The notes beneath the pieces were generated by a model. That model was not told the DNA's origin, did no database searches, and worked only from the letters and a program-made list of their open reading frames with translations. From Marchantia polymorpha subsp. ruderalis (taxonomy: Eukaryota > Streptophyta > Marchantiopsida > Marchantiales > Marchantiaceae), in contig AP031356.1 of NCBI GenBank assembly GCA_037833965.1, forward strand, positions 11,182,501 to 11,246,500: a DNA stretch of 64,000 nt, written 5' to 3'. The translations under genes and the position numbers were made by a program. Shown here piece after piece: positions 2,201 through 9,675 of this stretch. Every line of letters begins with the position of its first letter. The stretch's first letter is position 1.

Positions 2201-2522
2201 TCAGTCTGCCGCCCGCTCGCTCGGCTCGGCTCGCCTCAGGGTCACGACCCCGACTCCGTTCTCTGCCTCTGCCCTCTGCCCTCTGCCCTCTCGCTCAGCT
2301 CTGTTTTTCTTCGTTTGATTTCTCGCGCACCGTCCCATTTGCTTCCCGTTCGAGCGTATCTCGTCGTTTGGACTGATTTGCTTCGTAGTTCAGCAAGCAA
2401 ACGGTGAGGGGAGCTGGAGCTGGAGTAGGTGCGGGTTTGTTTGCAGGTTTTGGTCAAAGTGAGGAGCGGGATAGTTTCTGACTTCTCCTGAATTCGAGAA
2501 AGTCGCAGCGGGTGGGCTAGAA
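2200..2522 (+). promoter_or_regulatory. Probable core promoter and 5' leader of the phosphatase gene
   Basis: Pyrimidine-rich DNA, including three tandem copies of a 7-nt unit tgccctc near 2265-2292, leads into the start codon at 2523. No TATA box was identified. CT-rich leaders are common in plant housekeeping genes. The transcription start is inferred only from position. Confidence 0.35.
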
Positions 2523-3194
2523 ATGGTGAAGACCACTCCATTGAAGGCAGTGACCTTGACGCACGTGAGATATGAGCGTGGAGATAAGCTTGGGCATTTG
2601 CTGGCATGGGCTTCGTTGCTGCCGGTGATTATCGGATTGGGAGGATTTTTGTCACATTTCATTTTTAGGCGAGAGATGCAGGCCATGGCTTTTGGTCTGG
2701 GTTTGATCCTGTCAGAATTCATCAACGAGATGATCAAGAAGGTTGTGAAGGAAGCCCGCCCTATCACCTGCGAATTGTTGGAAATGTGTGACTCCCACGG
2801 ATGGCCGTCCAGTCACTCCCAGTACATGTGTTTCTTCTCAATATATCTCACTCTTCTGGTGCTCAGAAGATTCCATTTTACCGATTCCTTCAGCAGAAAT
2901 TTCACTGCTATTTTACCCTGGCCATTCGCTCTGGCCACCATTTACTCCAGGGTTTACTTGGGATACCACTCTGTGGCACAGGTGATTGCGGGCTCGGCCG
3001 TCGGTTTGACTTTGGGATCTGCCTGGTTTGTAATTGTCAACAAATACCTGGTCAAATTCTTTCCAACCTTAGAGGGAACATACTTCTGCCGCTACTTGTG
3101 CATCAAGGACAGCACTCACATTCCTAATGTACTCCGGTTTGAGTACGACAATTGTAGAGAAGCGCGCAAGACGGCGAAAGTCAGGTCCGAATGA
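2523..3194 (+). CDS. LPPG: Dolichyl-diphosphatase / lipid phosphate phosphatase gamma (PAP2 family)
   Basis: Intronless 223-residue PAP2-family phosphatase, close in length and sequence to plant LPP-gamma and related to animal DOLPP1 and yeast CWH8. The family removes a phosphate from dolichyl diphosphate (ER dolichol recycling for N-glycosylation) or from phosphatidate; the plant enzyme has also been placed in plastids. All three PAP2 motifs are visible: K72-x6-R79-P80, P95-S-S-H98 and S142-R-x5-H149. Hydrophobic stretches at about 26-48, 54-70, 103-114, 128-140 and 154-170 fit a multi-pass membrane protein. A conserved tail after the last helix contains HIPNVLRFEYDN (about 199-210), which supports the LPP-gamma/DOLPP1 subgroup over other PAP2 enzymes. 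The start at 2523 matches the family N-terminus (LKAVTLTHVRY shortly after Met). Family is secure; ER versus plastid location is not decided by the sequence. Confidence 0.93.
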   Translation: MVKTTPLKAVTLTHVRYERGDKLGHLLAWASLLPVIIGLGGFLSHFIFRREMQAMAFGLGLILSEFINEMIKKVVKEARPITCELLEMCDSHGWPSSHSQYMCFFSIYLTLLVLRRFHFTDSFSRNFTAILPWPFALATIYSRVYLGYHSVAQVIAGSAVGLTLGSAWFVIVNKYLVKFFPTLEGTYFCRYLCIKDSTHIPNVLRFEYDNCREARKTAKVRSE

Positions 3195-4495: not shown

Positions 4496-7400
4496 TCAGT
4501 TCTCGCGAAACGTAAGATTCAACCGGCCAGGTCTCAAGTTCGACTTTTGAAGAAGAGATTCAGGTGCTGAGCCCCTGATAATTTTGGATACTCCATGATA
4601 AATCATCCTAGATGGGCCGCCAAAAATTAGAACATCGCCAGAATCTAGCACCAATTTCTCTGCGGTCTCCACATTATTATCTGAACCATATAAAAACTCC
4701 GCAGAGTCTCCCACAGAAAATGAGACGACAGGGCTACCTCTCTTCAAGCTCTCTGGGCTTTCGTCCTTGTCCTGCAGATTGACATACCAATTAACCAACC
4801 AAAGAAATTTTTCGACGAACATTGACTACTTTGACCAAAATCTCAACAGAAATTGGACGGAGATATCAGAAGACAACTCTAGTCATTGCGGAACCCATCA
4901 CCAAACATCCAAAATGTGTTACCTGATGCATTCCGAGATTCCCGCTGTGTTCATAGAAGTTTACGATGCAAACATTCGGCACCATATCCGGCACAGGAGA
5001 ATTTCCGTTGATTACTACTCTCTTTGCCTTCCCTCCAGATTCCTGAGCTATGTGTAGTTTGGCTACAGATATAGCTTTTTCAACCAATCTCAAAAATGAT
5101 TCCGGTAGTGGTGGAGCCATCGCGTTGTCATAGTTGGTACGCCGGCTTTCATAAGCACGAGAGGTTGGTTGCCACTGCATTCCTAAGCACATCATCCTTA
5201 AATGCATCTTACTATTCTCGTCATACTGAGGCTGATAAAATCCTCCAGGTCCTGTACCCAGCAGCTTACACTGTTTGACAATGTCGACCTGCATATCGAC
5301 AAAGGGAAAATGTCAAGTCCAGCTTTAGGTACACAACTAACGAATTCCTCAACAGCCTCAGCTGCTATCGAGTTGTCATAAAAGGTTCCAAGGCCGACAT
5401 GACAGTCCTTTTCAACATCGCCGTGGTGATTCCAAGTTGAATAAATTTACATTTCCATACAACTATTTTACAGAAGGCAGTACAGCTGATACACATGTCT
5501 ATAGTTGTCAGTGTGACAATTGTTGGGACACATGAAAACCTTGATGACAACTAAATGTACGGGAATTCTGTCGCGGCGACTTCTAACATAAGCTCTACTG
5601 AGAAAATACAAGAACCGATATACAAAAGAACGATTCCCACCTGCTGGTCAACACTTAACCACTTCTTGAGCAAAATCATACCCGGACGTAATGTTCGATT
5701 GTAAGACTCGCTTAATGCTTCCTTCCTGTCTGTCTGTTTCTGTTTGATAAGAGACGGTGCCAACACCACCGGGTTATGTTTCCCATGTTTTCGTGGCAGG
5801 CAGATATCGAAAATCGGAGGCGCACTTTTATCTTCAGCATGTGAAGGTCCAATACTACTTGTAGTAGAAACTGCACCACCTATACCGAGTCCCCTCATTT
5901 CGCTTCTACATTCTGCGAACTTTTCATCCTCTTCAACCGGAGCAGAAGCGTTCGCCCTGGGAGCCTGCCAAGCATTGTTTAGCTCATCTATATTTGAAAT
6001 GCCGATATCTTGAAGATTGTGGCCAACCAGAGCCTCTACAATCGGATCGTCGTGCTGAATTCTTGCACTCTTCTTAGCTGCTAGTCTTCCCGCAGCAGAC
6101 GAATTCTGCGCCCATTTTCCTGATCTACTCGGTACAGCAGGTTTTCCGCCGTCGACGAACATAGGTGACTCTTCTAGAAAAGGGTTGGGCTTTATGCGGG
6201 GCACGTTCGCAACGTCCTTCCCAACAAACATGTCACCTCCGAGAATAGAAACACTTCCAACCCCGTCCTCGCCATTTTCTTGACCTGCCATAACAACCTG
6301 CTGACAAATTTAAAAACGAAGCTCTTTGTTTCGGAATTTGTCGAGCACAGGGACTAACTCTAGCTGAAGATCTCAAGAAGCACAGCAATAGTATAACTCC
6401 CTAGGTTTTTTCCTTTGAGAACAGCTTGGTGAAAGCCCATTGTTTTGATTCATTCATTCGTTAGCTGGCACTCGAAGACAGACAGCTCAAAAGGAAGGCT
6501 ATCACAACCGAGGCAGTTACACAGATAAAGTGGCGGAACTCCAAGATTACATATGTTCAAACTGAAAGATCGGGACACGCCCGCGTTAGCTGTGTTGTGG
6601 AATCCTTGCAAACAGGTGAATCACCAAACCAAACTACTCTGAAATCTTCGTAAGAAAGTAGAAGGTTACAAGACAACCCCCTGCAGCTTGTAAGCAGTGT
6701 AGAAGAAACCACTTCAATTTTCAGCTTTTCGGACAACTATATACCTTACGACCAAGCAGGTCGATTGTGACAACGACCCGCTTTCTGCGCTCTTCGGCAA
6801 TGCGCTCCTCATCTTCTTGTCTCTTCTTCAGAAGCTGCTTTTCCTGAAACGTTCGCATGATAACAAATGATAAGCTCCTGTAATCGTGTTATGTGTAGAT
6901 CATTCGTCCAAAGCTACATCAGAAAGTACCAAAATTCTCGCGAACACATAATATTGCAAGTGCGTGTTGAATGTACCTTGTCAGTGAGCCATGTGTTACC
7001 ATCAATCTGGAAGTAGTCACTCTGGTCATCAATGACGGTTGTACGGGCTGCTGAAGACCGATCATACTCTACCAGCCTGTTCTTAAACTCCTCTGCTTTG
7101 ATTTCTGCTTCACTTGCTGGTGGGACAGCCACACCTTCAAGGCCTGCATAATCACTCCCCTCTCTCAACACTAGAGCACCACAATACTCACATGGCCCTT
7201 CCCCTTCCTGCTCACAGACTATTTTTCCACAGGAAAGACAGTTATTAATGAGCTTATGTCTTGTACACTGGCAATTACATGGGCCACTGCGGCTAAATAC
7301 TACCAGTCCTTTCGAAGCTTCTGCCAAGCTGACTCCTTTTCCACCTCTTTTCCCCTTACCACCAGCGGTTTTCCCTTTCTGAGTACTTGAATTCTGTGAC

Positions 7401-8343
7401 GCCGTTGCTCCAGTGGCTGTTGATGAAGACAAGGTTCGGTCGGCATTTTTCTGGGCCGAGGCATTTCCCTCAGCTTTCTGTTTCTGTGGTTTCTTACTTC
7501 CTGCAGACCAGGACTCGTCTTCTCGAGGTTTGACGTAAGCCTGCAAAGTTTCTCCAGGTACACTGGTGGGGCCTCCACCTCTTCGGCGCACGTACTCAGC
7601 AACAATGTCATTGCATCTGTCATCTACGACAATGTTCTGCAATTCAATTCCTCGCATATAAGGGTCGGGGAACTGACAAAGATCATCTGCAAAAAAATAT
7701 GCTCCAGATCCTTTTCACAACATTATATGCAAGACTCCCCTTCCTCCTCGAAGCCACAACTTAATCACACGGATCCTGCCATAAATTTCTGAAAATGCTA
7801 CAAACATGACATGTGCTCGCTGAATACCATTCATCGTGCAAAGGCGCCCCGTTAGCGATGTGCACATCATTGACCCACACATACGGTATGCTTTTCATAA
7901 ACCCTACTCAGAGTCGCAGACCCTGATTTCAAGCGACTCCACTAGTACTAAGAAACAATCCGATGACGCAACTCGTCATTACTATCCATATGAGAATCTA
8001 TACCAATGCACAGAGAGGTAATAGAAAAGACGTGCGCAGTAACAACCATAATTTGAAACATCACCTCCTTCGACTGCTAAAGTCCTTATACCCACTTATA
8101 GCGCAACAGAGATCATCCGATCAACGTACAATGTGAAGACGCACCTCTCGTTTCCATCACACAGAAAGGGCGAGAAAAGGAGTATACCATTAAGTACTCG
8201 CTGGCGTCAGGGGGTGAAGCCAATTCGCAGTAGGAAACCAAATTATACACCAGATCAGCATCCAGCTGAAGCCCAGATCGAACATCTGACGACAAATTGA
8301 GCAAAGATTCCTCCAACCACTTGCCCGCCTCCGTCAACGCCAT
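4496..8343 (-). CDS. ASC-1/TRIP4-type zinc-finger protein fused to an ALKBH1-type 2OG-Fe(II) dioxygenase
   Basis: Six exons in reading order: 8343-8188, 7636-6977, 6843-6745, 6297-5641, 5288-4923, 4771-4496. All introns are phase 0 with GT-AG ends; the product is 737 residues. Residues 1-305 match plant ASC-1 (TRIP4): an N-terminal helical region (WLEESL...YCELASPPDASEYL), a zf-C2HC5 zinc finger with Cys/His at about 172-204, and an ARTTVIDDQSDYF block. Residues 306-390 hold the ASC-1 tail (RIKPNP, then RIQHDDPIVEAL). The same exon then runs into an AlkB module (RPGMILLKKWLS onward) with iron ligands H645, D647 and H705 and the 2OG-binding pair R729-x5-R735. AlkB enzymes oxidatively demethylate nucleic acids; ASC-1 belongs to the ASCC coactivator/repair complex. 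The ASCH domain of animal TRIP4 is not seen. I chose the Met at 8343 because it opens the family N-terminus. The join is direct from sequence; the function of the fusion is inference. Confidence 0.88.
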
Positions 8344-9076: not shown

Positions 9077-9157
9077 GTCAATATGGCCGAGTTGGTCTAA
9101 GGCGCCAGTTTCAGGTACTGGTCCGAAAGGGCGTGGGTTCGAATCCCACTGTTGACA
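9077..9157 (+). tRNA. tRNA-Leu (anticodon CAG)
   Basis: An 81-nt cloverleaf can be folded by eye. The acceptor stem GTCAATA pairs with TGTTGAC followed by discriminator A. The anticodon stem is CCAGT/ACTGG around loop TTCAGGT, giving anticodon CAG, and a long variable arm of class II type is present. The B box GGTTCGAATCC is intact. It is a nuclear Pol III gene. It lies 11 nt upstream of a tRNA-Arg gene on the same strand. Confidence 0.95.
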
Positions 9158-9168
9158 TGGTTCCTGAT

Positions 9169-9242
9169 GGTCGCGTAGCGCAGTGGATTAGCGCGTCAGA
9201 CTTCGGATCTGAAGGTCGGGGGTTCGAATCCCCTCGTGATCG
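9169..9242 (+). tRNA. tRNA-Arg (anticodon TCG)
   Basis: A 74-nt cloverleaf: acceptor GGTCGCG pairs with CGTGATC (two G-T wobbles) followed by discriminator G. The anticodon stem is TCAGA/TCTGA around loop CTTCGGA, giving anticodon TCG. The A box (TAGCGCAGTGG) and B box (GGTTCGAATCC) are intact. A short T-run just downstream (9247-9257) is a plausible Pol III terminator. Confidence 0.95.
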
Positions 9243-9675
9243 GAACACTTTTGGTTTTTCGTTCGAGTGCTTTTCAGGTTTTCACCTGAATGATTCAGGC
9301 ACGTGGCTTAATTGCCGGCATGAAGAAGGATCTCCGATCTGAGGCTTTGCGACGGAAGTTATCAGCAAGAGAGGCGCTCGTAAGCTCCAGTGGACGGATA
9401 AAGGTAACTCTTAAACATGGTGAACAGAAACTACGTACTACATATCTGACGTCAGAGTTCTGGCGTGGTTGGTCCTTTTTCTATTTTCTTCGTAGTTTGT
9501 ACTCTTTAATCGGTAGCACTTGCTATTCGTTCTGTGCCAGAAACATCCAAACGATGATTCTAAAAGAAGAAAATGTAATTATAAACAATGCAATTATGGG
9601 ACCAGAGACGTTTTTCACCGTATGGGACATGACTTTTTCTCCGGAAGAATTAGAGTTGCTCAAGCATGAGAGTTA
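9243..9675. other. Spacer between the tRNA pair and the pogo element
   Basis: A 128-codon plus-strand frame (9290-9676) crosses this spacer and ends at the transposon edge. I recognise no domain in it, and it does not continue past the transposon, so I do not call it a gene. Confidence 0.4.

Follow-up and report, generated by a model that had tools for sequence, protein, structure and literature searches.

A Marchantia polymorpha gene predicted to fuse the front half of ASC-1 to an AlkB-type oxygenase

This work describes a gene of Marchantia polymorpha subsp. ruderalis that is predicted to join the front half of ASC-1 (TRIP4), a subunit of the ASCC helicase complex, to an AlkB-type oxygenase in one protein. 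The gene lies on the minus strand at positions 8343-4496 of the window, by which we mean the whole stretch of 64,000 nucleotides analyzed here (contig AP031356.1, positions 11,182,501 to 11,246,500 of the forward strand, assembly GCA_037833965.1). Our reading, to which we assign a probability of roughly one in two, is that the AlkB domain stands in the place of the ASCH domain of ASC-1 and would couple ribosome rescue or strand unwinding to dealkylation. The gene thus suggests a built-in link between the clearing of stalled machinery and the repair of methylated RNA or DNA.

The gene comprises six exons and five GT-AG introns, all of phase 0, and the joined exons (2214 nucleotides) encode 737 residues followed by a stop codon. 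Exon 1 (8188-8343; residues 1-52) begins with the ATG at 8343, in the context CCAACCATGGCG. Exon 2 (6977-7636; residues 53-272) contains the C2HC5 double zinc finger together with the first part of the TRIP4_3rd domain, the bulk of which is encoded by exon 3 (6745-6843; residues 273-305). The end of TRIP4_3rd, a linker and the beginning of the AlkB domain share a single open frame in exon 4 (5641-6297; residues 306-524). Exon 5 (4923-5288; residues 525-646) continues the AlkB domain and includes the iron ligand H645 (codon 4928-4926), and exon 6 (4496-4771; residues 647-737 and the stop codon) supplies D647, H705, R729 and R735; all six are on the minus strand. Intron 5 (window 4928-4769) falls within the iron-binding HxD motif, precisely at the boundary of codons 646 and 647. 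A preliminary description of this DNA had proposed six exons without a frame break and with phase-0 introns throughout, and the GT-AG junctions and the 737-residue product bear this out; the inner limits that it gave (6843, 6745, 6297, 5641 and 5288) were exact, as were the start and the stop.

Exon 4, which the same description had singled out as bridging both halves, behaves as coding sequence. Its frame is open for 219 codons, and none of 20,000 mononucleotide shuffles of the exon kept that frame open. Codon-usage log-odds, trained on four untrimmed open frames of the same genome (2,830 codons), were positive in frame 0 in all nine overlapping 40-codon windows across residues 306-505 and negative in the other two frames in the same nine windows. 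Over the whole gene, the six exons scored positive in frame 0 and the other frames at or below zero (-0.00 in frame 1 for exons 2 and 3), although the wrong-frame scores are partly lowered because stops are penalized in this scoring. Each of the five introns is interrupted by stops in all three frames and scored negative in every one of them. It is very likely, to judge from splice sites and coding bias, that a single gene here encodes the fused protein.

A Pfam search of the 737-residue protein returned three domains above their curated cut-offs. The first two, zf-C2HC5 (PF06221; window 7163-7282, minus strand; residues 171-210; 40.9 bits, cut-off 25.8) and TRIP4_3rd (PF23134; minus strand; residues 256-308; 65.9 bits, cut-off 27.7), make up the ASC-1 half. 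The third, 2OG-FeII_Oxy_2 (PF13532; window 4505-5682, minus strand; residues 511-735, exons 4-6; 166.7 bits, cut-off 31.2), is matched completely, over profile positions 1-194 of 194. A sub-cut-off match to Septum_form (E 0.01) was disregarded. In the zinc finger, all eight ligands of human TRIP4 are kept (C172, C174, H179, C185, C188, C193, C201 and C204). The AlkB half shows the hallmarks of the superfamily, HxD...H and R-x5-R, and its residues H645, D647 (codon 4771-4769), H705 (4597-4595), R729 (4525-4523) and R735 (4507-4505) are invariant across the fusion, a rice chain and a viral AlkB. These five residues had been called intact, and both halves functional in appearance; the first claim holds at the positions named, and the second is consistent with the full sets of zinc ligands and catalytic residues. 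The AlkB half is probably an active oxygenase. The zinc finger is also likely, with slightly less assurance, to dock on the helicase ASCC3: among the three contact residues tested, L181 and I191 (human L180 and I190) are kept and the third is changed.

The AlkB half was compared with known relatives by pairwise score. Among the chains of the Protein Data Bank (PDB; 23 matches to the fused protein at E up to 1), the best was a rice 2OG-Fe oxygenase (PDB 5xeg, 248.2 bits); E. coli AlkB scored at most 58.8 bits and ALKBH1 at most 36.3. PDB 5xeg and 5xoi presumably represent OsALKBH1 (LOC_Os03g60190). No ALKBH3 chain was among the 23 matches, and the PDB presumably contains one. A phmmer comparison with the AlkB domain as the query ranked the rice chain (250 bits) above bacterial loci (92-151 bits; 11 loci hand-picked among the 80 best of 294 relatives), a viral AlkB (100 bits) and the plant's own ALKBH1 (42 bits; a 179-residue piece, 41.7 bits to the fusion domain). 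That ALKBH1 is encoded by a separate gene on contig C2 of the assembly and gives 151.1 bits to the ALKBH1 chain 6ksf and 36.9 bits to 5xeg. The label "ALKBH1-type" in the preliminary description thus fails in its human sense, and we rejected a human-type ALKBH1 identity on three counts: at most 36.3 bits to ALKBH1 (versus 248.2 bits to the rice chain), higher scores for bacterial AlkBs, and the separate gene on C2. On these sequence scores, the AlkB half stands nearer to the AlkB proteins of plants and bacteria than to ALKBH1. The phmmer ranking (pairwise scores, not a tree) agrees with an AlkB subfamily of bacterial and plant members that clusters apart from ALKBH1 in Table 3 of PMC3265494; the Arabidopsis AlkB homologs in Table 2 of that paper include At3g14140, At3g14160 and At5g01780.

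The ASC-1 half lacks the ASCH domain of its human counterpart: no ASCH match was found in the fused protein (Pfam, E up to 1). We searched the plant's own genome (a 241-megabase [Mb] assembly in nine contigs) exon by exon and scored the best candidates, so that all counts from it are lower bounds. For ASCH, this search gave one match at E up to 1, on contig C3 (22.7 bits, cut-off 21.2, covering 32 of 103 positions). It is encoded by two exons with a GT-AG phase-1 junction, scores 82.3 bits to the ASCH domain of human ASC-1 and has an ATG directly ahead of it. The sole zf-C2HC5 match of the genome is the fusion gene of the window, and the profile search gave no second one. Because the front half is joined to AlkB and the ASCH half is encoded on another contig, ASC-1 looks split in this genome, its front on the fusion and its back as the C3 gene. 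The Arabidopsis relative of ASC-1 is, we assume, a separate gene.

The fusion gene appears to be single copy. Within the limits of these genome searches, no other full copy of the fused protein was detected (9 of 9 best candidates scored), nor an unfused copy of either half, a second copy of the linker or a processed (spliced) copy of the transcript. There was likewise no second TRIP4_3rd above the cut-off; one sub-cut-off match on C2 (E 0.85, with stops) was taken as chance. Beyond the gene's own six exons, the whole-protein search gave two matches: ALKBH1 on C2, at 34.8 bits, and a C9 fragment, at 20.6 bits.

Partners for such a protein can be recognized in the genome. They include an ASCC2-like CUE protein (56.1 bits to human ASCC2) and an ASCC1-like frame with an AKAP7_NLS domain (152.7 bits). 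BRR2 is evident (one fragment gives 201 bits to SNRNP200 versus 109 to ASCC3), and contig C8 encodes a second double-Sec63 helicase besides it, which we call an ASCC3 candidate, no more, because its scores are mixed (see below). The tie to the ASCC helicase complex that the preliminary description had drawn stays plausible, with the zinc finger kept, ASCC1- and ASCC2-like genes present and an ASCC3 candidate at hand. Sec63-region matches are also scattered over four sites, C6:25233246, C8:8623706, C4:2547655 and C2:14901578 (L026-L029, L127). The last of these is almost identical to the C8 candidate exon and reads on past the exon end; it may be a retrocopy because its sequence continues where the C8 exon stops.

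What is reported of the human and yeast complexes suggests how the fused protein might work. According to PMC10076317, the TRIP4 zinc finger alone anchors on the C-terminal cassette of ASCC3, and docked TRIP4 puts its ASCH domain at the strand exit of the helicase. By analogy, the zinc finger would dock the fusion on ASCC3, and the docked protein would hold AlkB at the point where single strands leave the helicase. With Fe(II) and 2-oxoglutarate, AlkB could then remove methyl groups from single-stranded RNA or DNA, for example from 1-methyladenosine (m1A), 3-methylcytidine (m3C) or similar bases, and ribosome rescue or unwinding would thereby be coupled to dealkylation. Several reports describe a setting in which this would make sense. 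m1A and m3C leave mRNA more slowly in ASCC3-deficient cells, and that report proposes for human cells that ASCC3 takes apart ribosomes that have collided on alkylated mRNA, upon which ALKBH3 demethylates it (PMC8254245). Ribosomes stalled on methylated mRNA are split by ASCC (PMC9098122), and the yeast RQT complex has been located near the mRNA entry channel (PMC9938168). We hold this coupled dealkylation, taken as a step of its own, to be a little short of an even chance. The preliminary description had placed ALKBH3 and TRIP4 together in one ASCC setting. The part that stands is that ALKBH3 works with ASCC3; the togetherness does not, given that human TRIP4 and ALKBH3 are mutually exclusive on ASCC3 in PMC10076317.

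Several observations weigh against the coupling of an ASCC-docked ASC-1 to dealkylation. As PMC10076317 reports, loss of human TRIP4 leaves the sensitivity to an alkylating agent unchanged, and joint exchange of the human TRIP4 residues L174, L180 and I190 weakens ASCC3 binding. The first of these three contact residues, L174, is Q175 in the fusion. The helicase itself is ambiguous: fragments of the C8 candidate score 121.6 bits to SNRNP200, 111.1 to ASCC3, 88 to yeast BRR2 and 74 to yeast Slh1, and its near copy on C2 scores 132.3 to SNRNP200, 131.5 to ASCC3, 107 to Slh1 and 70 to yeast BRR2. The lasso peptide that precedes and supports ASCH in human TRIP4 is not recognizable in the linker by alignment, since 816 of 2000 shuffles equaled or exceeded the score, and 967 of 2000 did so under softer gap settings. 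Likewise, PDB chains gave no ASC-1 match to the linker (three unrelated matches, best E 0.78; none in a second search). A resemblance to the lasso noticed by eye (NP...SP..VD, RIQ.D) was dropped after these shuffles and searches. As the human lasso is undetectable in the linker, the placement of AlkB on the complex is a guess. On the enzymatic side, PMC3265494 tested 11 Arabidopsis AlkB homologs, none of which complemented an E. coli alkB mutant, and rice ALKBH1 has been studied as a nuclear demethylase of N6-methyladenine (6mA) in DNA, which is another substrate (PMC10469495).

This last point leads to the alternative that survives best, although we consider it unlikely. In a chromatin role, the ASC-1 half would act as a transcription co-integrator that recruits a 6mA-type DNA demethylase, and neither ribosomes nor alkylation repair would be involved. 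The closest solved relative of the AlkB half is the rice 2OG-Fe oxygenase (54% identical), but 5xeg is only presumably the product of the rice ALKBH1 gene. PMC10469495 describes rice ALKBH1 as a nuclear protein with in vitro activity on 6mA in single-stranded DNA, yet mutation of the gene had a limited effect on 6mA genome-wide. Moreover, the part of ASC-1 that was retained contains the zinc finger that binds ASCC3 in humans, which speaks against a role on chromatin.

Less probable still is a neutral fusion, in which neighboring or shuffled genes came to share one transcript and the two halves act independently, without functional coupling. The linker (about residues 310-505) fits this explanation in that solved chains include no detectable relative of it and its similarity to human TRIP4 is not significant, and the architecture was examined in one plant genome. 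Against it, the genome searches detected neither half in another full copy, the ligands of both halves are intact and the joined frame runs open through the 219 codons of exon 4.

It is also possible in principle, but improbable, that the locus yields two proteins. AlkB would then be expressed from a promoter in intron 3 or exon 4, with Met308 or a later codon as the start, and the ASC-1 half would end by intronic polyadenylation. The third codon of exon 4 encodes Met308 (context GTTGTTATGGCA), and introns 3 and 4 measure 447 and 352 nucleotides, respectively. However, canonical phase-0 splice sites link all exons, and the last codons of TRIP4_3rd share exon 4 with the beginning of AlkB. AATAAA, ATTAAA and TATAAA are absent from the minus strand between 8700 and 4200, which is weak evidence because plant polyadenylation signals are loose. 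An assembly or annotation artefact that joined two loci is highly improbable, and a chance arrangement is disfavored as well: the junction lies within one coding exon of steady codon usage, on a contig of 28.25 Mb (C7), and the searches of the assembly detected neither half in unfused form.

Other AlkB relatives were recorded in the genome, in viral contigs and in bacteria. The PF13532 search of the plant's own genome gave at least 8 matches at E up to 1, of which two belong to the fusion, one to ALKBH1 on C2 and one to the C9 fragment. This fragment, C9:6407247-6407387 (L016:2703-2939), resembles the last exon, is of the same AlkB class and is 45% identical to residues 686-736; its iron-ligand His reads Gln, and no further frame of L016 matches the fusion. 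Two more matches, C8:13759402 (L007) and C2:22169208 (L008), are further AlkB relatives, which we take to be ALKBH8-like and ALKBH9/10-like, respectively. The remaining matches lie at C6:8556010 (37 bits) and C4:7832340 (E 0.13). Viral contigs gave one AlkB relative, L035 (1 of 3 candidates and again 1 of 28); in this IMG/VR contig, positions 4956-5633 encode a protein 34% identical to the plant AlkB domain that keeps the HQDKDE motif and both arginines. The ASC-1 half was matched by none of 64 and none of 38 pattern matches in viral contigs, a search that did not extend to the surroundings of L035. In bacteria, 294 of 335 candidate stretches were AlkB relatives, and the best identity was 38% among the best 80 of the 294. 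As for the neighborhood in the window, adjoining genes for tRNA-Leu(CAG) and tRNA-Arg(TCG) lie upstream of the fusion gene (9077-9243, plus strand), and an open frame of 239 residues (2475-3194, plus strand) is convergent with it. The latter presumably encodes a PAP2/dolichyldiphosphatase-type membrane phosphatase.

In the open PubMed Central (PMC) literature, no ASC-1/AlkB fusion was described in the titles and abstract openings among the matches listed. The joint architecture with a displaced ASCH is new as far as tested; its families are known, each half is covered by a solved structure (8alz and 5xeg, respectively), and plant databases may annotate the gene. A natural covalent fusion of an ASC-1 with an AlkB enzyme would add independent evidence, from evolution, that the two activities go together, and the apparently single-copy gene would open the coupling to a test by one knock-out and one active-site mutant. 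More tentatively, the sole ASC-1 of this plant may itself be a dealkylase, with ASCH as a gene of its own. The human choice between TRIP4 and ALKBH3 would then be abolished, and every ASCC/RQT complex would carry a demethylase at the strand exit. Were this true, methylated bases would be cleared as ASCC/RQT splits collided ribosomes or unwinds DNA.

The fused protein can be set beside five known systems. Human-type ALKBH1 shares membership in the AlkB superfamily, but its counterpart in this genome is the different gene on C2. The rice oxygenase (5xeg/5xoi) has 54% identity over the AlkB domain and all five checked catalytic residues in common with the fusion, but 5xeg is a chain of 231 residues that aligns (residues 8-230) to the AlkB part only. 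Human ALKBH3 with ASCC3 likewise brings an AlkB dealkylase to ASCC3, although as a separate protein that competes with TRIP4 (PMC10076317). Human ASC-1/TRIP4 (PDB 8alz, 109 bits) has the zf-C2HC5 with its eight ligands and TRIP4_3rd in the same order, but its C-terminus consists of the lasso peptide and ASCH, where the fusion has AlkB instead. Yeast Rqt4 (PDB 7zpq, 41.2 bits), a member of the RQT complex, matches best over residues 82-212, including the zinc finger, after which it has a winged-helix-like part (PMC9938168) rather than AlkB. Together, these comparisons suggest that ASC-1 can exchange its C-terminal module, with ASCH in the human protein, a winged-helix-like part in yeast and apparently AlkB here.

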